IMG/VR virus record: IMGVR_UViG_3300042905_005722
Location: 1-47,611 of that record
Source of the DNA: a virus
Strand: one strand, 5' to 3'
DNA length: 47,611 bases
Under the pieces are notes generated by a model. That model did not search any database. It was not told the DNA's origin and saw only the letters and a list, made by a program, of their open reading frames with translations. Every line of letters begins with the position of its first letter. Position 1 is the first letter of the stretch. Made by a program: the position numbers and the translations under genes. Positions 3,001 through 18,348 of this stretch are shown in pieces.

Positions 3001-6000
3001 GCCTACGTCAACCCGCAGGCCATCGACGCCATGGTCGCCGACATGGCCGACCGCCGCCAGCGCATCGCCGAGGTCGAAGAAGCTCTGGCCAAACGCGATG
3101 CCGAGATCGAGGCATTCGCGAAGCGCAACAAAATCGACAACCTCGTCACGGCCAAATACAAGCTCGAGGAACAGGAGCGCCGCGAGGCCGAGCGCCGCAA
3201 GGTGATCGCCGAAAACCGCGCCAAGTTCTTCCTGCGCGACAACGCCCTGCGCGAGATCGAGCAGGCCCGCCAGAACGGCCGCAACGTCGAGAAGGAGTCT
3301 CTCATGTTCCTCCTTGGCACCGGTCAGATCGGCCGCCGCCGTGGCGCCGCCGACCTGCGCCTCATGGGAGAGTCGGAGAAGCGCATGCTCGCCGCCCTTG
3401 GCATCGGTGTGGACACCGCCACGGACGGTGGCTACTACTACACCCTCAGCCGCCTGAAGTCCGCCCTCCTGGCCGTGGAATACACCCTGGACGGCAGCGC
3501 CGAGCGCCAGCTTGCGCTCGACGAACTCGACTACGTGCGCCAGCAGCCCGTCGAGTGGCAGACCGCCCCGGACGACTCGAAACCCGCCTACGTCCAGTGG
3601 CACCGCGGATGGGAGCACCTCATCATCCGCGACAGCGCGCTGGCCGACCTGGCCCTCACCATGCCAAACGTGGCTGCCGCCATCCCGCACAGCGAGTCCG
3701 AGCGCCGCGCCACCCTGGGCCTGCCCGCCCAGCCCGCCCCGACCACCGAACGCCCCGTCTCCGCAGAGAAAAAGCAGGATAGTCCATCCCCCACACCCAC
3801 CGCCTCACCCACACACACACGCGTGGAGGCGCGAGACGAAACCACCCCTGTGGAGGCACCCCCGGCAGCCCGCGCACCCGCCGCACGCCCCTCGCCAAAG
3901 GCCCGCATCCCCCTCGGTGGCAAACTGTCGCTGCCCGCCGAGTTCGCGTCCCAGGACGATCTCGACGCGTTCAACTACCAACTCGACCGCGAGTCCCTGC
4001 TGCGCGAGACAACCACCGCCGCCGAGCGCCGGAAGGCCACCGAACGCATCCAGTCCCTCCGTGCCCGCCTCATCGACGAGTCAGGCGCTACCAAGGAGGC
4101 CATCGAGCAAAAACTCGCCGACTACCACCGCGCCGTCATTGACGGCGCGAAAAAAGCGGATCCGGTCGAGGTTTACCGCCCCACCCCGTTCCACGCCTTC
4201 GCTGGCGCGATCACGGACACCAGCGAGGCCACGCTGCCCGCTCCCGTCGGTGGCGACATCATCAGCGGCATGAAGGCGCAGGGCATCCGCCACCTCGGCC
4301 CGCCGGACAACAGCGACGGCTGGGCCTGGTATCGCGAACTCAAAGCCGACGCCGCCATGTCCAAGATGAAACCCCGCGAGGCCAACCGCCTCGCCAAGGC
4401 TGGCGACATCACCGACGCGAAGGCCCGCCTCGCGTGGATCGACATGCATGTGGTCTCGCAAACCGGCGGTCGCTCCATCGACGAGGCCGCCGCCGAGCTC
4501 AATGAGTCCGAGTACCAGCAGTTCCCGATCACCAGTGGCGAGGAACTCGGCCGCGCCATCATGGACGCCATCGCCACCCGCCTCACCGCCCGCGATGCCG
4601 CCCCTGACCCCGTCGTCCAAGCCGAAAAGCAGGCCATCCAGCAGGGCGGAGACTTCCGTGCCGTCGCCGAAGGTGCCCCCGGCCAGCCCTTCACTGGCCG
4701 CACCCTCGCCGCCCGCGTCCAAACCGGCGACGAAATCCAGATCGGCTCCGAATGGCTCACCGTCACCGACATCGATGCCGAGGAAGGCACCGTCGCCCTC
4801 GACAGCGACCGCTACGGCCCCCAAGCCATTGAGCCTGACCAAACCATCCGCCTCCGTGCCATCGGTGACGAGTCGCTCAGCGACTCGCCAGCGACTCGCT
4901 CAACCGTCGCTCAACCCTCGCTGAGCGATCTCCAAAACGACCCCGACGTCATCGCCGCCCGCGACGAACTCCTCGCCGCCATGCGCGAGGCCGGCATGCT
5001 CTCCGCCTCCGACCGCATGGGAGCCATCGGCTATGTGAATGACAATGGTTCTGTCTCTCTTAAATTCGGCCAACTCAGCAAACTCCGTCACTCAGAGACA
5101 AAACACGCCCAAAACACCTTCCGTTATGTCGCAGCAGAAGGCACCGTGTTCTGGTGGAAAACCCCAACCGAACTCGAACAGGAAGCGGTGGCCGCCGAAT
5201 TTGAACGCCGAGGCTATTCATCCCCGCGCCATAAAAACATCCTCACCAGTGACACTGAGTCCAGCCTCAAAACACAGGACTTAATCCACGGTAAACTCCC
5301 CGCCTCCCACCGTTTCACCCCCGAGGAAATCGCCACCGTTCGCGAAGAACTGGCATCCAACCGCCTGGATGATGCCTACCAGGGCGGCAACGCCTGGTTC
5401 CACCCGCGCACCCAGAAGTGGATCAATCTCGGCATGGAACCCCACTTCATGGCCGCGCCGATGATCCACCAATGGGGCTACGGCCCCGCCATGGTGGATG
5501 GCTGGGCTCGCGTCGTGACCGAAACCAACTCCCGTGGCGAGCGCACCCTCGGCGTCGAGTTCTACGGTCCCCTCACCCGCCGCATCCAGCGCGTCATGTT
5601 CGACACCGCCCTCACTCGCGGCATCGACCCCGACAACATCGCCTACGACCCCCACGCCGAACGCTACTACGGCAAAAAATACGACGACGAAACCGGCGAC
5701 CTTCTCTCCGCCTCCCCTCGCCAACTGGAAAAACTCCGCGACGATGTCCTGCGCTCCAACCTGTTGGAATCCCGCATGCGTGGTCCTCGTGCCTGGCTCA
5801 CCCCAAGAGCGGAATGGATCAATGTGCAGGAGCATCGCGAGGTCTTCCCGCCAAAACCCCACATTCTGCACAGTTACGACGCCATGCATCAAGCGGGCTT
5901 CGTGCGCGTGGCCCACTCCATGCTGCTGCATGCCGAGTTCCACACCGGTCGCCTAACTCCCGCTCAACGCCGCGAACTCGAAAACACCGCCATTGAACGG

Positions 6001-9000
6001 CAGACCGAACTCTCTCTCGACCCCCAGCCCCTCCCCGCCTCCCCCCGCTTCCGCAACGCCGCCTCCCAGTTCGCCGACACCGCCTGGAACAAAAACATCC
6101 GCAGCTTCCCGGCTTTCCTCGACTTCGCCGCCAAAACCGTCCCCGAGGCCTTCCCGGTCCTCAAGACCCCGCACCTGCGCAGCGCCTGGAACACCATCCT
6201 AAACGAAAAAGACTTTCCTGAGATCACCCGCGCCGAAGAGGCCGACGCCCTGCGCCCTTACGGCAGCCCGAAGATCGAGCGCCGCTTCGGCGAAATGCCG
6301 CCCGACATCGCCGCCCGCGACGAATCCATCACCCCCGAGTCCCTCGGCATCCCCACCGTCAAACTCGCCAAGCAAGCTAAACCCGTCCCCCCTACCGACC
6401 TGCTCGGCAACCCAATCGCAGAACACGAAGAGGAGGATGAAGACGAATCTGGCGACTCAGAAGACAAGGTGCAGAATCGCGGTTCCACCGAACTGCAACG
6501 CCTCCAAGCCATCGACGAGCTGTACGGCCCTCTCGCTCCCGGCGTCGAGGTCATGGAGACGCAGAACCAGGACGGCGACACCGTGCCCCACATCATGCGT
6601 GGACGTGGACTCATGCTCGCCATCGACGGCCAGCCCCACGTCGCCATCCGGTCTGTGGCCTTGCCATCGATCGGCACCGGTCACGCCCCCGGCGTCCGCT
6701 TCCTCCCGCTCGCAGGCGACAAATCCAACTGGACCGGCCACATCAACAAAGCCCTCCGCATCGCCGATCCACAGCTCGACGACCACACCGACATCTACAT
6801 CGAGCCCTACGGTGGCGGCCTCGTCTATCTCCAGAACCTGGAACCTCTCCTGCGCACCACGAAGCCCGTCTTCATCGCCTCCAGCCAGGAGTTCGAGCCA
6901 GACCGCAATCTCATCTACACCACCCTCCAGCGTGGCGATGCCGCCGCCCTGGCGGACATTCAAGCCATACTGAGCGACATCAACCACAAACCCCAAACCG
7001 ACGCCGGCGAGGCCCTCGTGCGTGTGTTTTACACCAAGTCGAAAAAACGCATCGTCCGCAAGCTCTCCCCTGGTGCCGCAGCGCAACTCCCCAACCTCGT
7101 CGCACTTCTCCAGCGCCCTAATGTCAAAATCCTCCCATGGAATGACGTCCAGACCTTCGAGCGCGCCACTGCCTTCGCCCAGCAAGGCAAACGCGTGACG
7201 CTGCTGGAAGACTCCAACTACGCCGACCTCTACGCCGAAAAAACCCAGGACCAATACAAAGACATCGACACGCATCCGGACATGTTCAATGCCGGCAAAA
7301 TCACCGACTTCATCGGCAAAGACCCCAAAAAACTGCTCACGCAGAAACTCCCCGTCTATCGTGCCGTCCTCGACGCCGGCGGCACCGTCATCGCCACCAA
7401 CAACATGAACCCCGACCTCATCAACGGCCTCCTCGCGGAGTTCGGTGATGCCGGTCACTGGTTTGGTTACGCCCACCGCACCCGTCCCGTGCCGGACGGC
7501 TTCATGCGCCACCCGGATGGCAAGGGCGTTCTTTGGTCCACCGAGCGGCCAGAATACCTTGCTATCCTGCGAAAAGGAGTCGTTAATCCCACCACAGGAG
7601 CACCCAAATATGGAACAGACACCTCAGCAGGACTTGACTATCGGACAGGCCCACGGCGGTTACTGGAAGGACTTGATCGCGCAGCACAACCTCGTCGAAC
7701 GCCAAGTCCTCACACAGGAGGAAGCCTCGAAGCTGCTCAATCACTCCGTGGACCAACCCATACCAACGGACCTAGCCCAAGTGCTGGACCGGTGCCTGGC
7801 AGCGACGGCAAAAAAACCGATCCCCGCACCCCAGTCCTAGACGCCACCATGTCCGGCGGTCCCGACTGGGACTTCACCCAAAGCGCCCAAGTCGCCGCTG
7901 AACTCGACGCCGGATGGAGATCCGCTGACGAGCGTGATGCCGAGATGATGGCCGCCGGCGGCATCGACGACACCGAGGACGCCATCACCCTCGACGAACT
8001 CGAACGCGCCGAGATCGAGCGCCAACGCCAGTTCTACCGCGATATCAACGGCAACACCCGCCCCGAGGCACTCCAAGCCTCCCGCCGCATCCACCCCGCC
8101 ACCGGCCAGCCCCTCGCCGCATCATCCCGCAAAAAAGGACCCACCTTCCCCGGACTCAAGAAGCCCACGCTGCCCGCGCCCACGCCGCGCCCTGAACTCT
8201 TCGATGAATGGGCAGCCGCACTCGGCTACGCCAATTCACTCTACGGCTACCGTGGCGAACCCACACCCGGCGAACGCACCGGCTACGGCAACACCGAAGG
8301 CAATGGCATCTACCTCATGCGCAGTCGCGACGAAGCCGAGCCGTTCGGCCATGTACGCCGCGTCCAGTTCCCTGAACCGCACCGCCCCTTCCTCGTCACC
8401 GGCGACGATCTCTACCTCCTCAACGAGTCCGAGGACCTCGACCAGCCCATCGACCCCGCCAAGGACACCCCCTGGCTCCAGGCCAGCAAATACGCCGCCC
8501 AGCACGCCCACAACCTCGGCAAAGGCCGCTGGGACGCCCAGCTCGCCGGCGACATCCTGACCAAGCTCCTCATGGAGTCCGGCTACGACAGCGTCTATGT
8601 CAAAGGCATGCCCGACGACTGGGTCGTCCTCCTCCGCACCACCCGCCCCGGCCAAAAACCCCTCGCCCCCCTCCCAGCCTCAGCACGCACCCCAAGTGAT
8701 GCGGGCACTTCTGCCCGCACCTCTCCCCGTCTCGCGGCAGCGCCCCGCGAAGTCGAGCCCGGCTTCTACTCCAAACTCGAGCAGGTCATCACCGACAAAC
8801 TCCCCGCCAAAGGCAACTCTCCCGCCAGCGTCAAAGCCCTCCTCGAAAATAACGGCGTCAAGACCGATGAAATCAAATGGTCCGGCCTCCTCCCCTGGCT
8901 CCAGGAACAAGCCAAAACCGGCCCCATCGCCCAGTCCGCCCTCCTCGACTACCTCCGCACCCAAGGGGCCGTGAAGTTCAGCGTCACGCAGCTCGGCGGA

Positions 9001-12000
9001 CCCCTCATCCCCGCCAACGATGAAAAGCGCTACCGTGAACTAGTCCGCATTTCGGACCCCACCCCTGAGCAAGAAGCCGAACGCATCGCCATCTTCCATC
9101 GCCGGCACAACGCTCGCAAAAGCACCGCAGAAACCCGCAACACCCAATGGCAACTCCCCGGCGGCACCAATCCCCAAGAAGTCGTCATCACCTGGAATCA
9201 GTCGTTACCACCTGAGCCGACCCATGAGGACCGCGCCAACTCCATGTCGCGCCGCGAATTGATCCAATGGTATCGCACGCATATTTTCGACGACATCCCC
9301 CAGGACGCCTCCGAAGACGCCGTCACAACCGAGCGGCTTCGACAATTGTTCATCCAAAACGCCACCCTCCACCCGAGCAACAACCCCTACTACAAAACGC
9401 CTCCACGCGTCTCCCCCAACTACCCCGAAGACACCACCCACTACGGCGACCTCGACGCCCTCGCCTGGTATCGCGCCAACGACCGCACCCTCGACGGCTC
9501 CCCCGGCCTCTTCGTCGAAGAATTCCAGTCCAAATGGCACCAGCTTGGACGGGACAAGGGCTATCGGGGGGACCGACAGGCTAATGGGCTTCCGACCGCT
9601 TTCACCCTCAAAGAAAACGCAGGGGGATGGAGCGTTTATGACGCACAAGGACGCGATGCAGGCTGGGCAGAAACACAAGAGGATGCTATCAAAGCAGCAC
9701 TGAAATACGAAGGAGGAAGTGATACCGGCATCCCCGACGCCCCCTACCGCACCGCCTGGCCCCTGATGCTTTTCAAGCGTGCCCTGCGCGACGCCGTCGA
9801 AGCCGGCAAAGCCTGGATCGGCTGGACCACCGGCGACACCCAAGCCGACCGCTACGACCTCAGCAAGCAGGTGGACCGAATTCGTTACATCCCGGGACAC
9901 CAACGACTGCTCGCCGACAAAGGCGGCACGAACGTGATCGACCAAACAGTGCCGCCCGAGAAACTCGCCGACCATGTAGGCAAGGACATCGCCGAACGCC
10001 TGCTCAACAACCCCACCCGCATCATTGACGCCCTCGGTGGCGCACAGCACGAACTCTCCGGCCTCGACCTCCGCGTCGGTGGCGAAGGCATGCGCAAGTT
10101 CTACGACGACATCCTCGTCAAAGAGTTCGGCAAATACGTCAAGCAGTGGGGCGGCAAGGTGGAGCAGTCTGAGATCAACACCAGCACCACGCTGTCCACC
10201 CCCGAATTTAAACCCATCTCAGGCAGCGACTGGGAAACATTCGCTGGCGCTGAGGCTTTCGCCAATGGTGACCGGCCTCTATTTGCGGAAACCACCATCA
10301 ATGTGGACGGCCAGCCGGAATCCGTGGTTGTCATCATCGATGCCAACGGTCTGCAAATGGTGTCATCTGAAGGCGAAACCAACTGGATGGCCCCCAATGA
10401 CGTTTTCCCCGGTCAGACTTCCTCCGGCTGGTGGCGCTCCGCCGCATCGGCCCAGTCCGCCGTCGAGATCGCCTGGAAAGTCGAAATGAGCAAGTTCTGG
10501 CGCGAACTCCAGCCCATTGTGGGCGAAGGCGTGGCCACCCCACGCCAAGGCACCACCCCCATCTGGCGCATCACCATCACCCCCCAGATGCGCGAGAGCG
10601 TCTCCCGCGGCCAGCCCCTCTTCGCCGCCACACGCTTCCCGCTCGACCGCGCCCTGGCACCCACCGCCACCGCCCCAAACGCCCTCTTCGCGCCGTCTCC
10701 CCGTCTCCCTGTCTCCCCGTCTCCAAGTCTGCTAAACGCCGCCTACACCGCCGCAGCACGCGGCCAGAGCAGCCAATGGCTGCCGATCCGCGCCGTCTTC
10801 GCCCAGGCCCGCCTCCTCGACCCACGCCTCACCCCGGACGCCTTCATGGCGGCCGTCAAGGCCGCCGACGACGCCGGCACGGTCTATCTCTCCCCGCCGG
10901 AGTCCGCCGCCACCGTCGCCGCCGCAGGCCCCTTCCAGCTTCGCAACGCCTCCGGCATCGTCGTCACGGACATGACACTGGCTCCGTCCGCGCTCGCCGC
11001 TTCAAATCGCCGCAACTCGCGACAAACCAGTGGCTTTCTAGCCCCGCAGGGTGTAGCTTGGAAGCATGGAGAATCTCGGCTTATTCAAGGGCTCGCCCAA
11101 GCAGACGCTTTCAAAGGAACAGGCGTTGGCCTTGTTTCGAGCGAATCAGAAAAACCGGAAACTTACACGCGTACCGGGCGATCAATTCCGCCCTACACCG
11201 AACGCGCAGACCTCTCCGACCTTGCCTACGAAGAAGCAAAGCTGATCGAACGCGCCAGTGCTGAAGGATTCTTCTGGGACAACGCCCAAGTCGAAAAAAT
11301 CATCGCCTACCTTGGCGACGCCGGCGGCGGCACCGAGCACGATGTTTACATCACTGGCGAAAAACGCCATCTGATCGTCATCCGCAGCACCATCCTCGAC
11401 AGCTACGGCTTCCAAGGCCGCTCTCCGGCTCAATACCTCCAGCGCCTCCAGAGCTACAACACCGCATTCCCCGGCATCCAGACGCGCATGATCGGCGTCT
11501 CACGCAACACGCGTGGCAACGGCGTCATCTGGACCGTTCAGCCCTTCGTCGAAGGCATCGAACTCAAGGATGACAAGCGCCTCCAAAGCCTCATGGAGGC
11601 CAAAGGCTGGGTCCGCATCGACGGCCCCGGCGACGACACCATCGTCTATCGCCACCCCCCGACCGGCGCCATCATTCGCGACGCCCACACTGGCAACATC
11701 CTCGTCAAAGGGAAAGAACTCTTCCCCATTGACGTCATCGTCACCAGCCTCGGCTCACTTTCCGAAGTCGCCCCGTCTCCCAGTCTCCTAGTCTCCCCGT
11801 CTTCGCCCCTCCCCGCCGCCCAGCGCGTCGAGCAGGCAGCCGCCCAAGTCGAACCCAATCCCACCCCAGCCCAGCAGGACGCCGGCAACTACCAGAAAGG
11901 CCACCTGCGCTGGAACGGCCTCGACCTCACCCTCGAAAACCCACGCGGCACCGAGCGCACCGGCCGCAGCAAAGATGGCCGCGAATGGTCCGTCACGCTG

Positions 12001-15000
12001 CCGCACCACTACGGCTACATCAAAGGCACCACCGGCAAGGACAAAGACCACATCGACTTCTTCATGGGGCCAAACCCCGACTCCGACCACGTCCTCATCA
12101 TCAACCAGCGGAAACTTGAAACTTCAAACCTGAAACTTGAAACTGGCGCAGCCGCCCAGTTCGACGAGCACAAAATCATGCTCGGCTTCCCGGACGCCGC
12201 CTCCGCCGCCCGCGGCTACCTCGCCGCCTACGAACCCGGCTGGAAAGGCCTCCAGTCCGCCGTCCCCACCACCGTCGCCGGCCTCAAACACTGGCTCACC
12301 CACGGCAACCACACCCGCCCCGCCAAACCCTCCGACATCCCCGTCAATGATGTCAGCAAAGTCAATCCGGTCCCTCTGACCGCAGCCGCCGCTGCCCGCC
12401 CAGCGACCACCCACACCCTCCCGGACGGCTACCACCTCACCGGCCCTGGCCTGCACCTCCTGCCCGCCAGCATCCGCGCCCACCACGGCACCCCGCACGA
12501 CATCCCGCTCGAGTCAGGCTTCTCCACCGCCAAAATCGGCTCCGGCGAAGGTGCCCAGGTCTATGGCTGGGGCCTCTACTTCGCCGAGGCCATGAAGGTC
12601 GCCGAGCAATACCGCAAGGCCCTCAGCTATCCCATTTTCCGCATTGGCGACAAAGAGTTCTTCCAGCGCGAAGGACCCGAGGCATTCAAAAAATGGGCCA
12701 TCGCCCATGTCGGCCAGGACTGGCCTCGCGCTGCCGTGCGCTACTTCGAGCACGCCGTGGACCAGTTCTACCACGACAGCACCACCTACGGCTACAGCTT
12801 CGACGCCGCCTCCAAACGTGCCAAAGACACGATCCGCAACTTGCTCGCGCAGGAACAGGTCGAGAGCTACCGCATCCAGGAGGTCACCGACGCGTTGAGC
12901 CGCATCACTGACAACGCCATCGACACCACCCCCTACGACTCCCTCGAAGGCCGTTGGACCGCCCGCGCCGTCGGATGGAAACCCGGCGAGGAATCGTTCT
13001 CCATAGACGCCAAAGCCTTCAACGACATCTGGAGCCGCCTTGGCTGGTATGCCGCCACGTTCGCCGACGCGCCTGCTCGATTGAAGTCCGAGTATGAAGC
13101 ACAACTCAACGTCCAGTCCGAGGAATATGACCGCCTCCTCGACAGTGGCAGGACCTCGGCGGACCCTATGGTTCTGGACACTTCCTCCCGCGTCCGCCTC
13201 GCCCAGGCCGCCCTCGACCTCCTGAACTCCGGCAAAGTCGTGCCCGAGGCTAACAAACGCCGCGGCAACCTTTACACCGTCGAACTCCTTGGTGACCCGG
13301 CTGAGTTTCTCGATTGGAATGACGACCTCATCAACCACCCCCAAGAAATCCAGCAGCGCTTCATGGACGCCCTGCTGCCCGTGATTGGACACCAAGTCGT
13401 CGATGGCCGACTGCCTGAATATCGCCGCTCGATGACCAGCACAGAATTTCCTTGGCTCGTGCTCAATACCAAAGGCTACTCGACCATGAACGACTACGCG
13501 ACCCGCGAGGAAGCGGAGCAAGGCCGCAAGGAACTCGATCACAATTACGCCTACCAGGACATCGGCAGCACCTACCGTGATGCCTCCCAACAAAAGGGCA
13601 TGACACCGCAAAAGGTGTCTGAGGCTCTAGCCAAGGCCGGCATCAAAGGCATCCGCTACACCGACGCCGCCAGCCGCTACCGCATCGAGAAAACCAGCCA
13701 CGCGTGGGAAGTGCTGACCAGTACGGGCAAACTGGTTGCCAAAGAACCCACCGAGGAAGCCGCTCGCGCCGCCATGGCCAAGCTGCAAACCTACAACTAC
13801 GTCCTCTTCGACGACAAACTCGTCAAGATCATCGAGCGCAACGGCCAACCCCTCTCCTCTTCTCCCAGTCTGGCCGCCTCCCCCCGCGCTCAACGCCTCC
13901 AGGCCTGGCAGAATGTCCCCGGCAAAGGCGATCCCGAATCGCTGCAGACAGGCTATATCAGCGGCAAGCACAACGCCACCATCGCCGCCCGCGCCAAAGA
14001 GCGGGGCGACATCGGGCTCCTCATCACGCCACTGATCCCCAGTTACCTCGCCCACACGACCGACTACCCATTCGTCGCCATCGACAACGGCGTCTTCTCG
14101 AAAGCCACGCCCTTCGACCCGGCGGCCTTCAAACAACTCGTCGACCGTGTGGCCGCCACACCAGCGGTGCGCGCCAAAACACTCTTCGTCGTCGCTCCAG
14201 ACGTCGTGGGAGACGCCGCCGCCACGCTCGACCGTTTCCCGGAATGGGCGCGCTTCATCCACGACAAACAACTGCCCGTCGCCCTCGCCGCGCAGGATGG
14301 CCTCGAGGACATCCGCGCCCGCATCCCATGGGATGACATCGACGTGCTCTTCATCGGCGGATCCACCGAATGGAAAACCGGCCAGATCGCCCCGGCAAAG
14401 CGGGCGGCCTGGGCCGGAATCTTCATGGAGGCCCACCGCCGGTCTATCCCCGTCCACATGGGCCGCGTGAATACCAACGACCGCATCGCCGGCATCGCCC
14501 AAATCGTCGGAGCCTCCACCGTCGATGGCACTTACCTCGCCTTCGGCCCGGATAAAAACCTGCCGAAACTCGAGCGCATGCTCGACCAGTTGAATGTCCA
14601 CGGCAACGACCTCGGTGCGCAGCAATTCCCCGAACTCGGTCGCGCTCCCAGCATCAACGAACTTTACGACATCGCCCTCGACGACACGATCATCTCGCCC
14701 GACCAACTCGGGGCCTACGAACCGGCCACCAAGGAAATCAACGCCATCCGCGTCTCGATGGGACTCCCCACCTTGGACGGCAAACGCGACCAGCAGCTCG
14801 AACTCGCCCTCTTCGCCTCCCCCCGCCCCCTCTCCGCCCTCAGCTCCACCGTTTCCCGCGCCGCCCAAACCACCTCCACCGCCGCGGCCTCCATCGCCCG
14901 CCTCACCGGCCTCGAAGCGCCGCTCGCCACCCTCGGCTCCAACAACCTCGACAAACGCCTCTCCGCCGCCCTCGACCGCGTCGCCGCGCCCAAGGTGAAC

Positions 15001-17775
15001 TCCGCCAAAGCCGCCGCCCTCGCCTGGCTGAACCAGACCGAAGGAGCCGCACCCACCGTGAAGGGCTTCATCGACCAGCTCCTGCCAAACGCCCTCATGC
15101 CCCGCGAATGGCTTGCCCTGAAGCACGAAATGGACCGCAAGGCCGCCTTCGGTGCCGAGCAGGCCAACGACCTCATCCGCGCCCTCAGCGACAAAGCCCG
15201 CCTCTCCGACCTCGCCTACCCGCCGGAGTTCTCCCAGGACCCCAAATGGCGCATGCAGATGTTCGACGCCATGGAGGGCAAACTCCCCCTGTCCAGCCTC
15301 CCCGAGCCGCTCCAGCGCCTCGCCGAGCGCCTCCGCACCATGCTGCGCCAGACCGGTGAGGAACTCGTGAAACAGGGCCTCATGAACCCGGACACCTTCG
15401 AGGAACTCCAGGCCAACGGCTGGATGCCCCGCTACACCGAGGACGAAGCCCTCGCCGCCGGCGGTTCCTTCCTGAAAGCCTTCAAGCTTGGCGTCCGCGA
15501 TCTCCTCCAGCAGCGCTCCACCGCCTACCACGTCGTCGATACCTCCCGCCGCGACCGCACCGGCCAATACGTCACCGTGAACCGCGAGGAAGGCGGCAAG
15601 CGCAACCGCTGGCGCTTCCGCGACAAAGCCCAGCGCGACGCCTGGTTCCAGACCTTCCTCCGCCAGCACATCCTGACCCAGCTTCGCGACGAGTCGCCGG
15701 AGGTGAAGGCGATGCTCACCCCCATGGGCCGCAACGACCGCGCCGCCGTGCGCGACCAGATCCGCAAGCTCACCCTCGACGACTTCGCCGCCAAAGAAGC
15801 GCTCTCCCCGGTCCTGCGTCGCATGATCAAGGACCTGAGCTACCAGGCCCAGCAGCGCTTCCAGACGGTCGATCCCTTCACCCCCGAAAAGCTCGTCAAA
15901 GACCCCGTCTATGCGGTCGCCCGCTACGTCCTCGGCCAGTCGCACAACGCCGCCACCATGGAACTCATGCGCTCCACCGCGGCGAACCCAGAATGGACCA
16001 CCGACGTGGACACCGCCGGCTTCACCCTCATTCCCGACAGCCCCCGCTTCGGACCCCTCGCCGGTAAATACCTGCGCGAGGACATCGCCCGCCAGATCCT
16101 TGACCTCGTGGACGTGCCAAACGCCGCCCTCCGCGCCTACGACGGCCTCCTGCGCAAATGGAAAGCCGCCAAGCTCGTCTGGAACCCCGGCTCCCATATC
16201 CGCGACGCCATCGGCAACACCGTGTTCGCCTACCTCGGCGGCAATTCCATCTGGAACCCCGGCAACTGGCAGCACTACCGCGACGCGATCCAGATCCTCC
16301 GCGAAGGCCAGTCCCAGGATGGCACCACCTTCGCCGAACTGCTCGAACAGCAGGTCCTCGGTGGTGACGCCTACTCCACCCAGGTCAAGGAGCGCCTGAA
16401 AGGCCTCCTACCCGACACCAAGACCATCGAGGATTTCAATCCCGGCCGCCTGCAGCGCACGCTGATGGGCTTCGGGTCGGCTTTCCACGGCACCAACGAA
16501 TGGCTCTCCGACATCCGACGAGTCCCTGACGACTTCTACAAGATCGCCGCTTACCTGCGCTACAAGAGCCAGTTCAAAAACTTGAAACCTGAAACTTCAA
16601 ACTTGGAACTCCAAAGCCGCGCAGCGGCTGAGGTCAGAAAGTGGTTCCCCTACTACGACCGCCTCGGCTCCAGTGGCACCACGAAGGCCATCGGTCGCTT
16701 CATTAACCCGTTCTTTTCGTTCTTCCGCGAGTCCACCCGCATCCTGCTCACCGCCGCCCACGAGCGCCCGCTGGCGCTCACCGCCGCCCTGGCATTCCCC
16801 GCCGCTTTGTCCTCGCTCTCCGCCATGCTCCTCGGCCTCGACGACCGCGACCGCGAAGAGATCGAAAAAGACCTCGCCGGACGCGGACTCGGCATCCTCG
16901 GCCTTGGCAATGCCCACCTGTTCTCCATCCTGCTGCCCATGCGCAGCAGCCAGGGCCAGGTGCAGCAGTGGGACATCTCCAGCACCATGCCCTTCGCCGA
17001 CCTCCTCGGCTCCCGCATCGTCCCGCTGGAAGAGAAAGAATCCGCGTTCCAGACCGCCTGGCGCAAGCTCCTCTCCGCCGGCCCCGTCATGGGCCTCGCC
17101 TACTCCTGGGCCACCAACCGCGACACATTCTCCGGCCGCCACATCGTCGAGGCTGACATGACGACGGGCGAACAACTCCGCGCCTACACTGGCCACGCCG
17201 CTGGCGTCATGCTCCCGCCGCTGGCGCCCGACCTCATCGGCGCAGGTCCGCTGAGCAGGGCAGGGGAGGTCCAGACCAACAAGACGCTCCAGACCTACGA
17301 CCCCACCCAGACCTGGCTGCGCTCGTTCTTCGGCCTCAACGTCAAGTCCGCCGAACCGAACCTCTACCGCCTCGCCGACGATTTCCGCGTCTCCCAGGGC
17401 ATCCAGAGCACCCAGGGCTACGACTACGGCACCACCCGCGAAAGCCGCGCCAAACGCGCCCTGGTGGCCGCCCTGGCCCAGCCGGAGCCGGATCTCGCCC
17501 GCGTCAAGGTGCTCGCCGAAAAGCTGCGCGAACTCGGCATCAGCCTCGCCACACCGAAGGACATCGAGAAGGTCCTCAAAATCATCGACCCCGCCCAGGT
17601 CATCGGCGGCGGCCACCGGAAGGACGGCACCGGCATCACCGCCGCCGACGCCCGCCAGCGCTTCCGCGCCAGCCTGCCCCCCGAGGCCCGCCAGAACTAC
17701 GAGCAGACCCTCCAACTCTACCAGCGCATCCTCGCCCGCGCCCCGGTCATCATCACCCGCGCCCGCAACCAGTAA
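1..17775 (+). CDS. Giant multidomain phage polyvalent protein (5' end outside window)
   Basis: The frame is open from base 1 to the TAA at 17773-17775. Residue numbers count from the GTG at 28, but the true start is probably upstream. Order of parts: helical region (EFLRMLVQDQAF near 530); coiled coil about 1000-1070; small beta-barrel-like region near 1560; D12-methylase-like 2225-2480; ADP-ribosyltransferase-like 2738-2875; polyvalent-associated blocks 2913-3535; kinase-like 3750-3910; pyrophosphatase-like 3945-4100; second ADP-ribosyltransferase-like 4150-4605; transglycosylase/DpdA-like 4626-4861; conserved helical C-terminal core 4970-5915 with a hydrophobic stretch at about 5583-5605. 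Pro/Ala/Ser-rich linkers separate the parts. Such polyvalent proteins of phages and conjugative elements are thought to enter the recipient cell with the DNA and counter host defences; that role is inferred here. GC at third codon positions drops sharply at 107-310, 7613-7840 and 11010-11200, where other frames look coding. No internal stop or frameshift is seen. Processing into smaller products is possible. Confidence 0.9.
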   Translation, partial: GRPIIKDSYVQNLRDDGLAAVADAIPSTETQTRNRYAQKPTAEGPQPASANQPGPQQPQPAAAQGAAPNAGSSTNAGPVQNPAQQGTQPTRSGSAPAQSGAPVAAEAPSTKAPTTEKAIADWLVDRYMPDKEAEAAAKAIAAHPQMAGKSFEDFNKMAGSQRDALFAELGITGSKAKSKAADDPLRYNSASADPFAAAKANANKAADELLNAVNKSKTTSPEDIADALAKAQAAYDDTIEGTSERAAAEKRIAYLRERQVVADLAPVKASVKAKEITEADATAAAAQAVEASGQTLTHSTLRQALELGLGWTTERSNVAAHNHLGTKDQSETPLATGDRADTANRPQPTPFSDEGKDPSAARMGPDLSIKSKSPLRKNSAYSRSKLLTLARIKDPAKKAWARQAFAAMEDSFQRHHALYDAIAVGPAAVRRLNGSMTAVEEIDGRITRLLDLDAIVANFDYLSNPADAIRATGIEEDIHAVVLRLARTQPEKYGREAIRRQWRSLPQMLRAQVWQAYDYGRTTMPAKLTAAQEYHMQNEFLRMLVQDQAFAQAITETVDTPTTLVAWIRDLLRDLSKTLRDLMGLVDAPLRAELEGMVAQIADQLRIYEGKSRGNEDRLATLDYLRDPAGIALQAMENGVLFDHLAKTDPSLSPEAMARAFDLLTPELQSIAYRAYRSSKQPGTKNQERKENKSDLLRHLLTAMTGDRSVSREVQTALLASSDRLGFPPELEFAQFIQGGTNEGGSMPNARQRARIEAAEAEGREETPAGGHGSLMVWPDEAQFVRKHGFGRTHLNTTALAMYQAAKAGSQPAMDRHARLLVRELTEELGESPENAQNTADTLMSAAKMAAGTMQGERGRPAGEAPGTTSSTADSQRGYLPASTRSTNLLSRLVSRLTQRTEAPPADLLALLKQQPEAARKTLASLHARLLRASADLAGAQFAQSQTITPATLARQVAAAVTSTPPPPPAPAVNTAPQSRPVPRTPLAITEAPRPGASRPAYVNPQAIDAMVADMADRRQRIAEVEEALAKRDAEIEAFAKRNKIDNLVTAKYKLEEQERREAERRKVIAENRAKFFLRDNALREIEQARQNGRNVEKESLMFLLGTGQIGRRRGAADLRLMGESEKRMLAALGIGVDTATDGGYYYTLSRLKSALLAVEYTLDGSAERQLALDELDYVRQQPVEWQTAPDDSKPAYVQWHRGWEHLIIRDSALADLALTMPNVAAAIPHSESERRATLGLPAQPAPTTERPVSAEKKQDSPSPTPTASPTHTRVEARDETTPVEAPPAARAPAARPSPKARIPLGGKLSLPAEFASQDDLDAFNYQLDRESLLRETTTAAERRKATERIQSLRARLIDESGATKEAIEQKLADYHRAVIDGAKKADPVEVYRPTPFHAFAGAITDTSEATLPAPVGGDIISGMKAQGIRHLGPPDNSDGWAWYRELKADAAMSKMKPREANRLAKAGDITDAKARLAWIDMHVVSQTGGRSIDEAAAELNESEYQQFPITSGEELGRAIMDAIATRLTARDAAPDPVVQAEKQAIQQGGDFRAVAEGAPGQPFTGRTLAARVQTGDEIQIGSEWLTVTDIDAEEGTVALDSDRYGPQAIEPDQTIRLRAIGDESLSDSPATRSTVAQPSLSDLQNDPDVIAARDELLAAMREAGMLSASDRMGAIGYVNDNGSVSLKFGQLSKLRHSETKHAQNTFRYVAAEGTVFWWKTPTELEQEAVAAEFERRGYSSPRHKNILTSDTESSLKTQDLIHGKLPASHRFTPEEIATVREELASNRLDDAYQGGNAWFHPRTQKWINLGMEPHFMAAPMIHQWGYGPAMVDGWARVVTETNSRGERTLGVEFYGPLTRRIQRVMFDTALTRGIDPDNIAYDPHAERYYGKKYDDETGDLLSASPRQLEKLRDDVLRSNLLESRMRGPRAWLTPRAEWINVQEHREVFPPKPHILHSYDAMHQAGFVRVAHSMLLHAEFHTGRLTPAQRRELENTAIERQTELSLDPQPLPASPRFRNAASQFADTAWNKNIRSFPAFLDFAAKTVPEAFPVLKTPHLRSAWNTILNEKDFPEITRAEEADALRPYGSPKIERRFGEMPPDIAARDESITPESLGIPTVKLAKQAKPVPPTDLLGNPIAEHEEEDEDESGDSEDKVQNRGSTELQRLQAIDELYGPLAPGVEVMETQNQDGDTVPHIMRGRGLMLAIDGQPHVAIRSVALPSIGTGHAPGVRFLPLAGDKSNWTGHINKALRIADPQLDDHTDIYIEPYGGGLVYLQNLEPLLRTTKPVFIASSQEFEPDRNLIYTTLQRGDAAALADIQAILSDINHKPQTDAGEALVRVFYTKSKKRIVRKLSPGAAAQLPNLVALLQRPNVKILPWNDVQTFERATAFAQQGKRVTLLEDSNYADLYAEKTQDQYKDIDTHPDMFNAGKITDFIGKDPKKLLTQKLPVYRAVLDAGGTVIATNNMNPDLINGLLAEFGDAGHWFGYAHRTRPVPDGFMRHPDGKGVLWSTERPEYLAILRKGVVNPTTGAPKYGTDTSAGLDYRTGPRRLLEGLDRAAQPRRTPSPHTGGSLEAAQSLRGPTHTNGPSPSAGPVPGSDGKKTDPRTPVLDATMSGGPDWDFTQSAQVAAELDAGWRSADERDAEMMAAGGIDDTEDAITLDELERAEIERQRQFYRDINGNTRPEALQASRRIHPATGQPLAASSRKKGPTFPGLKKPTLPAPTPRPELFDEWAAALGYANSLYGYRGEPTPGERTGYGNTEGNGIYLMRSRDEAEPFGHVRRVQFPEPHRPFLVTGDDLYLLNESEDLDQPIDPAKDTPWLQASKYAAQHAHNLGKGRWDAQLAGDILTKLLMESGYDSVYVKGMPDDWVVLLRTTRPGQKPLAPLPASARTPSDAGTSARTSPRLAAAPREVEPGFYSKLEQVITDKLPAKGNSPASVKALLENNGVKTDEIKWSGLLPWLQEQAKTGPIAQSALLDYLRTQGAVKFSVTQLGGPLIPANDEKRYRELVRISDPTPEQEAERIAIFHRRHNARKSTAETRNTQWQLPGGTNPQEVVITWNQSLPPEPTHEDRANSMSRRELIQWYRTHIFDDIPQDASEDAVTTERLRQLFIQNATLHPSNNPYYKTPPRVSPNYPEDTTHYGDLDALAWYRANDRTLDGSPGLFVEEFQSKWHQLGRDKGYRGDRQANGLPTAFTLKENAGGWSVYDAQGRDAGWAETQEDAIKAALKYEGGSDTGIPDAPYRTAWPLMLFKRALRDAVEAGKAWIGWTTGDTQADRYDLSKQVDRIRYIPGHQRLLADKGGTNVIDQTVPPEKLADHVGKDIAERLLNNPTRIIDALGGAQHELSGLDLRVGGEGMRKFYDDILVKEFGKYVKQWGGKVEQSEINTSTTLSTPEFKPISGSDWETFAGAEAFANGDRPLFAETTINVDGQPESVVVIIDANGLQMVSSEGETNWMAPNDVFPGQTSSGWWRSAASAQSAVEIAWKVEMSKFWRELQPIVGEGVATPRQGTTPIWRITITPQMRESVSRGQPLFAATRFPLDRALAPTATAPNALFAPSPRLPVSPSPSLLNAAYTAAARGQSSQWLPIRAVFAQARLLDPRLTPDAFMAAVKAADDAGTVYLSPPESAATVAAAGPFQLRNASGIVVTDMTLAPSALAASNRRNSRQTSGFLAPQGVAWKHGESRLIQGLAQADAFKGTGVGLVSSESEKPETYTRTGRSIPPYTERADLSDLAYEEAKLIERASAEGFFWDNAQVEKIIAYLGDAGGGTEHDVYITGEKRHLIVIRSTILDSYGFQGRSPAQYLQRLQSYNTAFPGIQTRMIGVSRNTRGNGVIWTVQPFVEGIELKDDKRLQSLMEAKGWVRIDGPGDDTIVYRHPPTGAIIRDAHTGNILVKGKELFPIDVIVTSLGSLSEVAPSPSLLVSPSSPLPAAQRVEQAAAQVEPNPTPAQQDAGNYQKGHLRWNGLDLTLENPRGTERTGRSKDGREWSVTLPHHYGYIKGTTGKDKDHIDFFMGPNPDSDHVLIINQRKLETSNLKLETGAAAQFDEHKIMLGFPDAASAARGYLAAYEPGWKGLQSAVPTTVAGLKHWLTHGNHTRPAKPSDIPVNDVSKVNPVPLTAAAAARPATTHTLPDGYHLTGPGLHLLPASIRAHHGTPHDIPLESGFSTAKIGSGEGAQVYGWGLYFAEAMKVAEQYRKALSYPIFRIGDKEFFQREGPEAFKKWAIAHVGQDWPRAAVRYFEHAVDQFYHDSTTYGYSFDAASKRAKDTIRNLLAQEQVESYRIQEVTDALSRITDNAIDTTPYDSLEGRWTARAVGWKPGEESFSIDAKAFNDIWSRLGWYAATFADAPARLKSEYEAQLNVQSEEYDRLLDSGRTSADPMVLDTSSRVRLAQAALDLLNSGKVVPEANKRRGNLYTVELLGDPAEFLDWNDDLINHPQEIQQRFMDALLPVIGHQVVDGRLPEYRRSMTSTEFPWLVLNTKGYSTMNDYATREEAEQGRKELDHNYAYQDIGSTYRDASQQKGMTPQKVSEALAKAGIKGIRYTDAASRYRIEKTSHAWEVLTSTGKLVAKEPTEEAARAAMAKLQTYNYVLFDDKLVKIIERNGQPLSSSPSLAASPRAQRLQAWQNVPGKGDPESLQTGYISGKHNATIAARAKERGDIGLLITPLIPSYLAHTTDYPFVAIDNGVFSKATPFDPAAFKQLVDRVAATPAVRAKTLFVVAPDVVGDAAATLDRFPEWARFIHDKQLPVALAAQDGLEDIRARIPWDDIDVLFIGGSTEWKTGQIAPAKRAAWAGIFMEAHRRSIPVHMGRVNTNDRIAGIAQIVGASTVDGTYLAFGPDKNLPKLERMLDQLNVHGNDLGAQQFPELGRAPSINELYDIALDDTIISPDQLGAYEPATKEINAIRVSMGLPTLDGKRDQQLELALFASPRPLSALSSTVSRAAQTTSTAAASIARLTGLEAPLATLGSNNLDKRLSAALDRVAAPKVNSAKAAALAWLNQTEGAAPTVKGFIDQLLPNALMPREWLALKHEMDRKAAFGAEQANDLIRALSDKARLSDLAYPPEFSQDPKWRMQMFDAMEGKLPLSSLPEPLQRLAERLRTMLRQTGEELVKQGLMNPDTFEELQANGWMPRYTEDEALAAGGSFLKAFKLGVRDLLQQRSTAYHVVDTSRRDRTGQYVTVNREEGGKRNRWRFRDKAQRDAWFQTFLRQHILTQLRDESPEVKAMLTPMGRNDRAAVRDQIRKLTLDDFAAKEALSPVLRRMIKDLSYQAQQRFQTVDPFTPEKLVKDPVYAVARYVLGQSHNAATMELMRSTAANPEWTTDVDTAGFTLIPDSPRFGPLAGKYLREDIARQILDLVDVPNAALRAYDGLLRKWKAAKLVWNPGSHIRDAIGNTVFAYLGGNSIWNPGNWQHYRDAIQILREGQSQDGTTFAELLEQQVLGGDAYSTQVKERLKGLLPDTKTIEDFNPGRLQRTLMGFGSAFHGTNEWLSDIRRVPDDFYKIAAYLRYKSQFKNLKPETSNLELQSRAAAEVRKWFPYYDRLGSSGTTKAIGRFINPFFSFFRESTRILLTAAHERPLALTAALAFPAALSSLSAMLLGLDDRDREEIEKDLAGRGLGILGLGNAHLFSILLPMRSSQGQVQQWDISSTMPFADLLGSRIVPLEEKESAFQTAWRKLLSAGPVMGLAYSWATNRDTFSGRHIVEADMTTGEQLRAYTGHAAGVMLPPLAPDLIGAGPLSRAGEVQTNKTLQTYDPTQTWLRSFFGLNVKSAEPNLYRLADDFRVSQGIQSTQGYDYGTTRESRAKRALVAALAQPEPDLARVKVLAEKLRELGISLATPKDIEKVLKIIDPAQVIGGGHRKDGTGITAADARQRFRASLPPEARQNYEQTLQLYQRILARAPVIITRARNQ
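107..310 (+). CDS. Small protein encoded inside the giant gene (+1 frame), first of three
   Basis: A 67-residue frame from ATG 107 to TAG, offset +1 from the giant frame. It reads as an ordinary small helical protein (LSPQQRKVLHQTL, FKILLNKGLSRHEAGVLLHNL), while the giant frame over the same bases is a Pro/Ala/Gln-rich linker. Third codon positions are mostly G/C in this frame and much less so in the giant frame, which favours this frame as the selected one. No clear Shine-Dalgarno sequence precedes it, but most genes here lack one. Function unknown. Confidence 0.55.
   Translation: MPKNPPPKDHSLPAQINPDLSNLSPQQRKVLHQTLAAAPTQAQFKILLNKGLSRHEAGVLLHNLALR
4868..4930 (+). repeat. Cluster of TCGCT/AGCGA palindromes inside the giant gene
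   Basis: GAGTCGCT and AGCGACTC form a palindrome around 4878, followed by further AGCGA and TCGCT copies to about 4930. The tract encodes a Ser/Thr-rich linker (DESLSDSPATRSTVAQPSLSD) between the barrel-like region and the next globular part. It looks like an inserted short repeat that happens to keep the frame. Confidence 0.6.
6700..7467 (+). other. Domain: D12-class adenine methylase-like fold with altered catalytic motif
   Basis: Residues 2225-2480 of the giant protein. A start resembling the FxGsK region of Dam-type enzymes (FLPLAGDKSNWTGHINKAL) is followed by EPYGGG at 2259, the usual SAM-binding EPFxG motif. The DPPY catalytic motif appears to be replaced by DSNY at 2395, followed by a GGTVIATNN strand. 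The domain may have lost N6-adenine methylation or work on a different substrate. The family call rests on motif order only. Confidence 0.45.
7610..7840 (+). CDS. Small protein encoded inside the giant gene (+1 frame), second of three
   Basis: A 76-residue frame, ATG 7610 to TAG 7838-7840, starting MEQTPQQDLTIGQAHGGYW. An AGGAG sequence at 7596-7600 lies 9 bases before the ATG, one of the better Shine-Dalgarno matches in the window. The product looks globular and amphipathic (VLTQEEASKLLNHS, LAQVLDRCLAA). The giant frame across the same bases is low complexity with many A/T third positions. It sits right after the D12-like domain. An in-frame ATG of the giant frame follows at 7849, which could be an internal start. 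Function unknown. Confidence 0.65.
   Translation: MEQTPQQDLTIGQAHGGYWKDLIAQHNLVERQVLTQEEASKLLNHSVDQPIPTDLAQVLDRCLAATAKKPIPAPQS
8239..8652 (+). other. Domain: ADP-ribosyltransferase-like, first copy
   Basis: Residues 2738-2875. The YRGE start at 2741 and the GNGIYLMRSRDEAEPFG stretch match the usual ART pattern of an R-containing first strand followed by G-x-Y-x-(T/S)-x3-A-x2-(Y/F)-G. The domain ends in a strand with VVLLR. Transfer of ADP-ribose from NAD to a target is the family activity; the target is unknown. A REP-like hairpin-coding insert follows at once (8700-8719). Confidence 0.5.
8700..8719 (+). repeat. REP-like hairpin inside the giant gene
   Basis: TGCGGGCA, loop CTTC, then TGCCCGCA gives a perfect 8-bp stem. 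It lies in a linker-coding stretch right after the first ART-like domain. It resembles repetitive extragenic palindromes, but only one copy was found here. Confidence 0.55.
8764..10632 (+). other. Domains: large-polyvalent-protein-associated blocks
   Basis: Residues 2913-3535. The first block has the pattern FYSKLEQVI ... WSGLLPWL ... LLDYL, found again and again in phage polyvalent proteins. The second has FVEEFQSKWHQLGRDKGYR, then GIPDAPYRTAWPLMLFKRAL, AWTTG-like IGWTTGDTQADRY, GEGMRKFYDDIL and a closing ITPQMRESV. Two extra segments interrupt the second block: about 50 residues around 3180-3230 and about 90 residues around 3390-3490. Function is unknown in the family. Confidence 0.6.
10694..10730 (+). 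repeat. 8-bp tandem tract (CGTCTCCC type) inside the giant gene
   Basis: Four degenerate copies of CGTCTCCC in a row encode a Pro/Ser linker (SPRLPVSPSPSL). The same motif family recurs at 11774-11804, around 13850-13884, and near 22973-23020. It marks domain boundaries rather than domains. Confidence 0.7.
11066..11245 (+). CDS. Small protein encoded inside the giant gene (+1 frame), third of three
   Basis: A 59-residue frame, ATG 11066 to TGA 11243-11245, starting MENLGLFKGSPKQTLSKEQA. The middle is strongly basic and helical (LALFRANQKNRKLTRVPGDQ). Third positions are richer in G/C here than in the giant frame, which in this stretch is a poorly structured linker before the kinase-like domain. 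A GGA four bases before the ATG is a weak ribosome site. The tail after about residue 42 may be non-conserved. Function unknown. Confidence 0.5.
   Translation: MENLGLFKGSPKQTLSKEQALALFRANQKNRKLTRVPGDQFRPTPNAQTSPTLPTKKQS
11275..11757 (+). other. Domain: protein-kinase-fold-like
   Basis: Residues about 3750-3910. GGGTEHDVYITGEKRHLIVI resembles a glycine-rich loop followed by the lysine strand. RDAHTGNILV at 3884-3893 resembles the HxDxxxxN catalytic loop of atypical kinases, and PIDVIV at 3901 the metal-binding Asp motif. Kinase-like domains occur in polyvalent proteins. Activity is not certain because the catalytic loop is atypical. Confidence 0.5.
11774..11804 (+). repeat. 8-bp tandem tract (CGTCTCCC type), second copy
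   Basis: Degenerate CGTCTCCC/AGTCTCCT units encode SPSLLVSPSS between the kinase-like and pyrophosphatase-like domains. Same unit and same kind of place as the tract at 10694. Confidence 0.7.
11860..12330 (+). other. Domain: inorganic-pyrophosphatase-like
   Basis: Residues about 3945-4100. QQDAGNYQKGHLRW, GLDLTLENPRG, HYGYIKGT, KDKDHIDFFMGP and FDEHKIMLGF give, in order, the conserved pattern of the pyrophosphatase-like domain found in polyvalent proteins. The acidic residues of DKDHIDFFMGP and FDEHK are kept. An 18-residue insertion encoded by a 7-bp tandem repeat (12112-12144) splits the domain just before FDEHK. Confidence 0.65.
12112..12144 (+). repeat. 7-bp tandem tract (AACTTGA type) inside the pyrophosphatase-like domain
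   Basis: Units AACTTGA, AACTTCA, AACCTGA and AACTTGA repeat at 7-bp spacing over 33 bp. The length is a multiple of three, so the frame survives. It encodes KLETSNLKLET just before the conserved FDEHK motif. A sister tract of the same length lies at 16578-16610. Confidence 0.8.
12475..13842 (+). other. Domain: ADP-ribosyltransferase of polyvalent type, second copy
   Basis: Residues 4150-4605. AHHGTPHDI, FSTAKIGSGEGAQVYGWGLYFAE and VAEQYR form the typical opening of the polyvalent ART family. GIKGIRYTDAASR and NYVLFDDKLVKI form the typical closing strands. Two inserted modules of about 40 residues lie near 4469-4505 and 4550-4588. Established family activity is ADP-ribosyl transfer; the target here is unknown. 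Confidence 0.65.
13903..14610 (+). other. Domain: tRNA-guanine transglycosylase / DpdA-like TIM barrel
   Basis: Residues 4626-4861. Recognisable in order: FVAIDNGVFSK, FVVAPDVVGDAAATL (4720), VALAAQDG (Asp 4757), FIGGSTEWK (4775-4783), VHMGRVNT (4809) and STVDGTYL. This series is the one I associate with phage proteins of the transglycosylase superfamily, including DpdA, which exchanges guanine in DNA for a 7-deazaguanine. No QueC/D/E or FolE homologue is visible in the window, so preQ0 would have to come from the host or from the missing part of the genome. Confidence 0.6.
16578..16610 (+). repeat. 7-bp tandem tract (AACTTGA type), second copy
   Basis: Units AACTTGA, AACCTGA, AACTTCA and AACTTGG repeat over 33 bp and encode NLKPETSNLEL inside the helical C-terminal core. 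This is nearly the same peptide as at 12112-12144, so both copies use the same reading phase of the repeat. Confidence 0.8.
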
Positions 17776-17915: not shown

Positions 17916-17924
17916 CATACCACC

Positions 17925-17957
17925 CCGACCCGTCCGAAACGTCGGACCCGTCAGACT
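17925..17957 (+). repeat. 9-bp tandem tract shared with the RusA-like gene
   Basis: Units of the form ACCCGTCCG / AAACGTCGG / ACCCGTCAG repeat at 9-bp spacing. The 20-base core CCGACCCGTCCGAAACGTCG occurs again inside the coding region at 22876-22908, on the same DNA strand. Confidence 0.75.
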
Positions 17958-18332: not shown

Positions 18333-18348
18333 CCCACCCCCACCCACC

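Follow-up and report, generated by a model that had tools for sequence, protein, structure and literature searches.

A DpdA-like domain within a giant phage protein

We analysed a linear virus record of 47,611 bases from IMG/VR (IMGVR_UViG_3300042905_005722; the whole stretch is called the window below), in which a giant open reading frame (ORF) runs in from the edge of the contig. The ORF encodes a polyvalent protein, and within it lies a domain that resembles the phage enzyme DpdA and the tRNA-guanine transglycosylases (TGT). Our favoured reading, which we regard as fairly probable, sees in this domain a guanine transglycosylase of the DpdA type, short and without zinc, carried as an exchangeable cassette in the giant protein and using a base of the host to modify phage DNA.

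A profile of the domain family, of which the window is itself a member, bounds the domain within the open frame at residues 4647-4867 (E 9e-75). An independent match (E 3e-47) comes from PHROGs, whose profile phrog_15826 is listed as "unknown function". A preliminary description of the window had placed a transglycosylase-like domain at 13903-14610, which proves right to within about a dozen residues (family profile 13939-14601). The motifs it listed, PDVVGD, AAQDG, FIGGSTEWK, VHMGRVNT and STVDGTYL, lie in frame and in the claimed order in the + strand ORF 1-17775, and we found one motif absent from that list, AIDNGVF, which carries the first invariant Asp (Table 1). The residue after the Gln of the QDG motif is Asp in 56 and Asn in 9 of the 65 sequences of the family alignment. 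By motif order, the Asp of the DGT motif is a candidate nucleophile.

Standard profile collections do not recover the domain: it has no match in Pfam-A or NCBIfam, the Pfam TGT profile PF01702 has none in the window record, and searches of the PDB by phmmer and by profile gave no significant sequence match. Weak hits to EAL (7/65 members, best E 0.022) and Spt4 (1/65) in Pfam-A, and to Prod1 and others in the PDB, were taken as chance.

Table 1. Features of the giant ORF, with coordinates in the window
Feature	Coordinates	Strand	Remarks
DpdA/TGT-like (beta/alpha)8 domain	13939-14601	+	Residues 4647-4867 of the open frame; bounded by the family profile
AIDNGVF motif	14077-14097	+	Asp at 14083-14085 is invariant; hhalign pairs the motif with LDSGAF in phage DpdA
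PDVVGD motif	14197-14214	+	Asp at 14200-14202 is invariant; counterpart in phage DpdA is LDGIGD/LDVIGD
QDG motif	14293-14301	+	Invariant Gln
FIGGSTEWK motif	14350-14376	+	Invariant Gly-Gly; aligns with IGG of phage DpdA
HMGRVN motif	14455-14472	+	Invariant His, Gly and Arg; His aligns with His196 of phage 9g DpdA
DGT motif	14524-14532	+	Invariant Asp-Gly; the Asp falls within the last strand of the model (positions 204-209); outside the hhalign span
Giant polyvalent ORF	1-17775	+	5,924 residues; 5' end cut by the contig edge
Kinase-PolyVal domain	11230-11742	+	PF18762, E 4.6e-11, over cut-off
Inorganic pyrophosphatase (InPase) domain	11869-12297	+	PF18823, E 9e-47, over cut-off
Stretch before the DpdA-like domain	12460-13851	+	By eye like an ART-PolyVal ADP-ribosyltransferase; no Pfam match
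C-terminal region	14893-17763	+	47-62% identity with giants L141, L142 and L143 over 939-983 columns

Predicted fold and invariant residues

The structure was predicted with AlphaFold2 from 65 aligned sequences, namely the window and 64 of 80 IMG/VR loci; the other 16 loci and six isolate phages were checked afterwards. The domain model (pLDDT 94.4, pTM 0.91) has eight strands in barrel order. When 1,000 Foldseek candidates were compared with it by VIA-align, the best match was a TGT (Z 15.5, 218 residues), and TGT account for 49 of the 50 entries listed (Z 14.9-15.5, 218-226 residues, root-mean-square deviation 3.0-3.6), these being mostly repeat crystal structures of one enzyme and therefore not independent. 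The sole other entry listed is Cap10 (Z 14.9). A Z of 8 was reached by 909 of the 1,000 candidates. A structure search of BFVD returned an uncharacterised 499-residue protein of a marine virus as best match; behind it, other barrels are interspersed with proteins that bear the name "queuine tRNA-ribosyltransferase" in several phages. The modelled fold by itself suggests a TIM barrel with TGT nearest, and the invariant residues are more telling.

Eleven positions of the model are invariant in 65/65 sequences (D61, P99, D100, Q131, G152, G153, H185, G187, R188, D208 and G209), and all eleven are also kept in the 22 sequences outside the model. Of these, D61 belongs to strand 3, D100 to strand 4, Q131 to strand 5, G152-153 to strand 6, H185 to strand 7 and D208 to strand 8, each placed on its strand or immediately following it; Asp102, Asp156, Gln203, Gly229-230 and Asp280 of TGT come in the same order. 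Conserved acidic residues are thus present at strands 3, 4 and 8, of which the first two align with phage DpdA and the third is matched by order. The preliminary description had named a prediction lacking a TIM barrel or the catalytic Asp positions, together with unmodified phage DNA, as the outcome that would speak against a transglycosylase; on the structural side, what we found is an eight-strand barrel with invariant Asp.

Relationship to phage DpdA and other transglycosylases

For comparison at the level of profiles we used nine sequences annotated as phage DpdA or queuine tRNA-ribosyltransferases (CAjan, 9g, MMDA13, Erebus, Ssp-JY38, Tres, Mufasa8, phiSM and Sonali gp87). Alignment of the domain family with this set by hhalign gave a probability of 87.5% (E 3.6e-6) and a score of 48.0; none of 100 column shuffles scored above 25.3, and the reversed profile scored 12.1. 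The alignment pairs AIDNGVF with LDSGAF, PDVVGD with LDGIGD, FIGG with IGG, and VHMGRVN with HAFGIT or HGFGIT. The H of HGFGIT is residue 196 of 9g DpdA, and Hutinet et al. 2019 (PMC6884629) describe this His196 as a conserved residue of DpdA that DpdA2 lacks. Furthermore, the zinc motif CxCxxC...H, present in 4/5 TGT, occurs in none of the 65 domain sequences and none of the nine phage DpdA, and the domain of the window has no Cys at all. Collectively, the fold, the profile-profile match to phage DpdA, the invariant residues of active-site type and the gene neighbourhood of the relatives described below support the proposed membership of the transglycosylase superfamily.

The domain thus shares with phage DpdA (9g, CAjan, Rosebush-type) the motif order DSG, LDVIGD, IGG, HGFGIT and S-DS, the histidine, a phage-borne gene, the lack of a TGT-type zinc motif and a significant profile match; it differs in being shorter (about 220 residues versus 240-346), in being a domain of a giant protein and in lying on a fragment without preQ0 genes. 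Proteins annotated in SEA-PHAGES as "DpdA-like tRNA-guanine transglycosylase" (Sonali gp81, Phegasus gp54 and Aoka gp40) are 39-45% identical to it and are matched by phrog_15826 at E 1.4e-89 or better, but these are stand-alone genes; a precursor transporter lies near the Phegasus and Aoka genes and none near Sonali gp81. Arthrobacter phage Sonali (L003, L089) carries both the short gp81 and, by ParB-like and QueC-like genes, the full DpdA gp87. Bacterial TGT are alike in fold and motif order, and the domain differs from them by having no zinc motif and no significant profile match. Cap10 of type IV CBASS, itself a host defence protein, shares the TGT-family fold; it is a member of the transglycosylase family that binds a deazaguanylated partner, with 7-deazaguanine linked to protein (PMC11996544).

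By tblastn, 21 of 50,697 phage records match the domain, with identities of 37-45%; the annotation "DpdA-like tRNA-guanine transglycosylase" is attached to 11 of the 21, and phrog_15826 matches proteins of all six isolate-phage relatives scanned. An alignment of eight sequences, used for a pattern scan of IMG/VR, gave 465 relatives, and since the best 80 of these were used, counts based on IMG/VR lean to near relatives. A scan of genome contigs gave 31 loci, none above 46% identity, and hence neither a prophage of this virus nor its host. Of these loci, 26 belong to Paraburkholderia, Caballeronia and one Burkholderia (L095, L097-L121); their relative is about 28-35% identical, and the six that were read have in common an N-terminal extension of about 60-80 residues. 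Relatives also occur in 167 of 72,556 plasmid records, 132 of them Pseudomonas plasmids; among the plasmid matches listed, eight (H64-H71) are 365-555 kb in size, with a relative 27-29% identical and annotated as hypothetical.

Relatives lie beside genes of 7-deazaguanine metabolism

We clustered the ORFs found within 6 kb of 86 relatives (80 from IMG/VR and six from isolate phages). The top cluster is a membrane protein present at 31 loci, the next reaching 9 loci, and it belongs to the Vut_1 family (PF02592), as all six transporters scanned pass the Pfam cut-off. The one QueC and the one QueD (PTPS) neighbour scanned likewise pass the cut-offs of their own Pfam families. For counting, we used profiles built from the phage clusters, reduced the loci to 70 at 90% identity, and considered a distance of 3 kb. 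Under these settings the transporter is found at 38/70 loci, at 35 of them within 300 nt, and QueC at 8, QueE-like at 7, QueD at 6 and QueF-like genes at 10. At least one of the five genes is present at 48/70 loci, at 47/70 if QueF-like is left out and at 46/70 if the count is limited to the genes whose representatives pass the Pfam cut-off (transporter, QueC and QueD). All 49 loci with a transporter match have the gene inside the 3-kb limit, none having it solely farther away, while QueE-like and QueD each have one locus with the gene solely beyond 3 kb. An apparent fusion of transporter and DpdA-like domain at L040 was rejected, as the frames differ and the genes overlap.

In the survey of Hutinet et al. 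(PMC6884629), phage YhhQ homologs showed no correlation with phage group; in contrast, the transporter homologs here go with the domain family. This suggests that import of a precursor is often paired with an enzyme of this family, and the neighbourhood supports a functional assignment for phrog_15826, which PHROGs lists as unknown.

Next to the domain of the window itself the picture is different. Profile searches of the window found no FolE (PF01227), QueC (PF06508), QueD/PTPS (PF01242), radical SAM (PF04055) or Vut_1, the radical SAM profile being a weak test since a QueE-like phage neighbour scores under its cut-off too. Five other records with giant proteins have no QueC, QueD/PTPS, radical SAM or Vut_1, and the profiles made from the phage neighbours of relatives found nothing in the window or in the giant stretches searched. 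These absences are provisional because the records, including the linear window, are fragments. Within that fragment we thus concur with the preliminary description, which had seen no preQ0 synthesis gene, and since no transporter was found either, preQ0 would have to come from the host if the domain works as a DpdA. Synthesis genes for preQ0/G+ in the same genome, a trait of some phage DpdA groups, are likewise not seen in the fragment. The largest DpdA group of Hutinet et al., comprising 76 phages, is also without preQ0/G+ synthesis genes, and these authors considered a host-derived base for phages that have DpdA only, one of which, in Salmonella, showed a trace of dADG (PMC6884629).

The domain as an exchangeable cassette

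The domain occurs in ORFs of more than 2,400 residues in six distinct viruses, that is the window (= L009), L010, L011, L012, L013 and L018, several of whose giant ORFs are truncated at the edge of the locus. Its companions include ddrB-ParB in L012 and, in L013, LPD1 (each scoring above cut-off), ResIII just over and FtsK_gamma just under cut-off in L018, and RadC in the giant of L010's contig; in L011, whose giant is otherwise different from that of the window, the only match is a sub-threshold one to ART-PolyVal (E 0.0013). Compared at E 1e-5, the L011 and window giants match solely over residues 4633-4925 (66%), and L010 shares further parts. The giants L141, L142 and L143, related to the window over the C-terminal region (Table 1), showed no DpdA-like domain in any frame of their 21-kb loci, although their ORFs run off the locus and a copy could lie farther upstream, and in L142 the slot between the two common parts (window 4168-4965) holds other sequence. 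Judged by these comparisons, the domain behaves as an exchangeable cassette in giant proteins.

A tree of the 65 sequences groups 8 of the 9 rows marked as fused with the 355-residue protein from L014 (support 100/98); rows L015 and L017 are marked fused by ORF length alone. Between the window and L010, nonsynonymous divergence (dN) is 0.23 and synonymous divergence (dS) 1.11, which indicates purifying selection, with dS near saturation. ParB-like genes neighbour the full DpdA in Sonali, Mufasa8 and phiSM, which makes the chain of ParB and DpdA-like domain in L012 suggestive. A further fusion, at L065:9911-12547, is an ORF of about 880 residues with the DpdA-like domain and a C-terminal sub-threshold match to a PD-(D/E)XK nuclease (E 5e-4); it is separate from the polyvalent fusions on the tree.

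The carrier protein and its surroundings

The IMG/VR contig 3300034106_006602 is from the same virus, with 100% identity over window 1-22291 in two overlapping alignments, and adds 1,112 residues upstream, which brings the giant to about 7,036 residues. Farther upstream on the same strand this contig has a tail-lysozyme-like gene (phrog_1259, 8.5e-24), one unassigned gene and a portal gene (phrog_1216, 1.3e-12), and beyond them a terminase-like gene on the opposite strand. In G001, the contig of L010, the gene for a giant of about 7,366 residues is preceded by a terminase-like gene, both being on one strand. This gene setting is as expected for a virion protein, and the giant is probably packaged.

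Polyvalent proteins join several unrelated effector domains in one chain, and here Kinase-PolyVal, InPase and the DpdA-like domain stand in one ORF, forming a giant multidomain chain like those of the DarB/DdrB type. Domains of the Kinase-PolyVal and InPase kinds were treated by Iyer et al. 2017 (PMC5512222), and the Dar proteins of phage P1 are virion proteins that act in cis (PMC12707154). The protein had previously been called giant and possibly injected: its size stands, with a 5,924-residue ORF, while for injection the indications are indirect, namely the polyvalent domains and the portal and tail-lysozyme neighbours. Elsewhere in the chain, residues 2154-2619 (window approximately 6460-7857) resemble by eye a D12-type DNA adenine methylase, with no Pfam match; L010 has this part in common at 59%.

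Outside the giant gene, an ORF at 36832-38079 looks by eye like a tyrosine integrase, which suggests a temperate phage. GTGACG/CGTCACG palindromes at 27781-28224, inside ORF 27650-28783, are possibly replication-origin iterons in a replication gene. Two copies of a 34-nt repeat, 94% identical to each other and containing the hairpin TCCGA-AACG-TCGGA, lie at 17922-17955, just downstream of the giant gene, and at 22873-22906. A repeated stretch with CACCCACCATGA is found at start codons at 18334, 19319 and 19896, with no Shine-Dalgarno evident by eye.

Proposed function and alternatives

We infer catalysis, the inserted base, the DNA target, packaging and ejection. In this proposal the glycosidic bond of a guanine would be cleaved by way of an intermediate linked to an Asp of the domain, and the guanine would be replaced by preQ0 or a derivative, a 7-deazaguanine base drawn from the queuosine pool of the host. 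The giant, encoded beside virion genes and probably packaged, would carry this as one of several activities on one chain, and the phage DNA would be modified either during assembly or when it enters the next cell. The best supported element is base exchange by a DpdA-type domain, and DNA is the most likely substrate because the profile kin are DNA enzymes and the zinc motif of the tRNA enzyme is missing.

Several observations weigh against this proposal. On the structural side, the first match of Foldseek in the PDB is PdxJ, with TGT just behind, and because several TIM-barrel families fall in a narrow E range we did not use Foldseek as proof. Pairwise BLASTP of the domain against CAjan DpdA gave no match, and the hhalign span ends before the last Asp. 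The hhalign comparison with an alignment of five TGT was not significant (0.6%); this set is too thin to decide, since true phage DpdA likewise fails to reach significance against it (8.9%). On the side of the neighbourhood, the radical SAM (QueE-like) and QueF-like matches fall under the Pfam cut-off. Furthermore, pathway genes are nearby at 0 of the 10 loci (9 non-redundant) of the domain's own clade, Vut_1 and QueC being absent from all ten records of that clade (G000-G009), so that a function deduced from neighbouring genes is borrowed from relatives with about 35-45% identity, and a change of function in the fused clade is conceivable. Finally, Mycobacterium phage Orion, with DpdA alone and a host without the pathway, showed no detectable modification (PMC6884629).

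As to when the enzyme acts, an ejected DpdA in a virion protein may mark the incoming DNA with a host queuosine precursor before phage genes are expressed, a possibility that we hold only tentatively and consider rather unlikely; delivered by the virion and supplied by the host, such an enzyme would disguise the DNA with no need of a phage synthesis pathway. A variant of the proposal, in which the enzyme acts in the producing cell, progeny DNA is modified before packaging and the giant only brings the enzyme to the packaging site, is a real contender, although we lean somewhat away from it. The gene adjoins the portal and tail-lysozyme genes on the same strand, and modified virion DNA is described for isolated phages that combine DpdA with a preQ0 pathway (PMC6884629), but polyvalent proteins have been argued to be injected with the DNA (PMC5512222), and the cis action of the P1 Dar proteins from the virion (PMC12707154) also weighs against the variant.

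We think it improbable that the domain modifies host tRNA or another host nucleic acid instead of phage DNA. The nearest solved folds are tRNA enzymes and polyvalent proteins have been predicted to include domains acting on host molecules (PMC5512222), but the distribution of the zinc motif separates the domain and phage DpdA from TGT, and at the profile level the domain stands closer to phage DpdA than it does to TGT. A role in counter-defence, in which a Cap10-like domain would bind or edit a deazaguanine-bearing protein or the host Dpd mark and so block defence, is a real rival, though it appears to us quite improbable as well. Cap10 is among the top structural matches and binds a deazaguanylated partner (PMC11996544), and a fused clade without the pathway genes of its relatives leaves room for such a role; however, the stand-alone relatives travel with a precursor transporter and synthesis genes, which fits supply of a base and not its removal. 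That the domain is a TIM-barrel enzyme of another chemistry, PdxJ- or EAL-like, and merely resembles TGT is very improbable, for despite the first Foldseek match and the weak EAL hits, the phage DpdA profile score lies above all 100 shuffles, the motif order and the DpdA histidine are kept, and 7-deazaguanine genes lie beside 48/70 relatives.

Implications

Annotated members of the domain family already exist among phage records; what appears to be new is its location in giant polyvalent proteins and the neighbourhood evidence. We found no publication that places a transglycosylase in polyvalent proteins, with the supplementary domain list of PMC5512222 outside the scope of that search, and the main text of that paper (Iyer et al.) has no word beginning with TGT, queu or deazaguan. 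Words for both subjects occur in PMC12839542, in a discussion of defence systems and in a citation, and PMC12707154 treats DpdA and the P1 Dar proteins separately in the part consulted. A base-exchange domain thus appears to be a new component of polyvalent proteins.

The assignment for phrog_15826 touches hundreds of viral contigs and the 167 plasmid records, and the proposal makes it a testable question whether phage DNA is modified on arrival with preQ0 of the host. If true, DNA-base exchange would join the activities carried by polyvalent phage proteins, and this virus would provide a concrete case in which hypermodification of DNA could precede replication.

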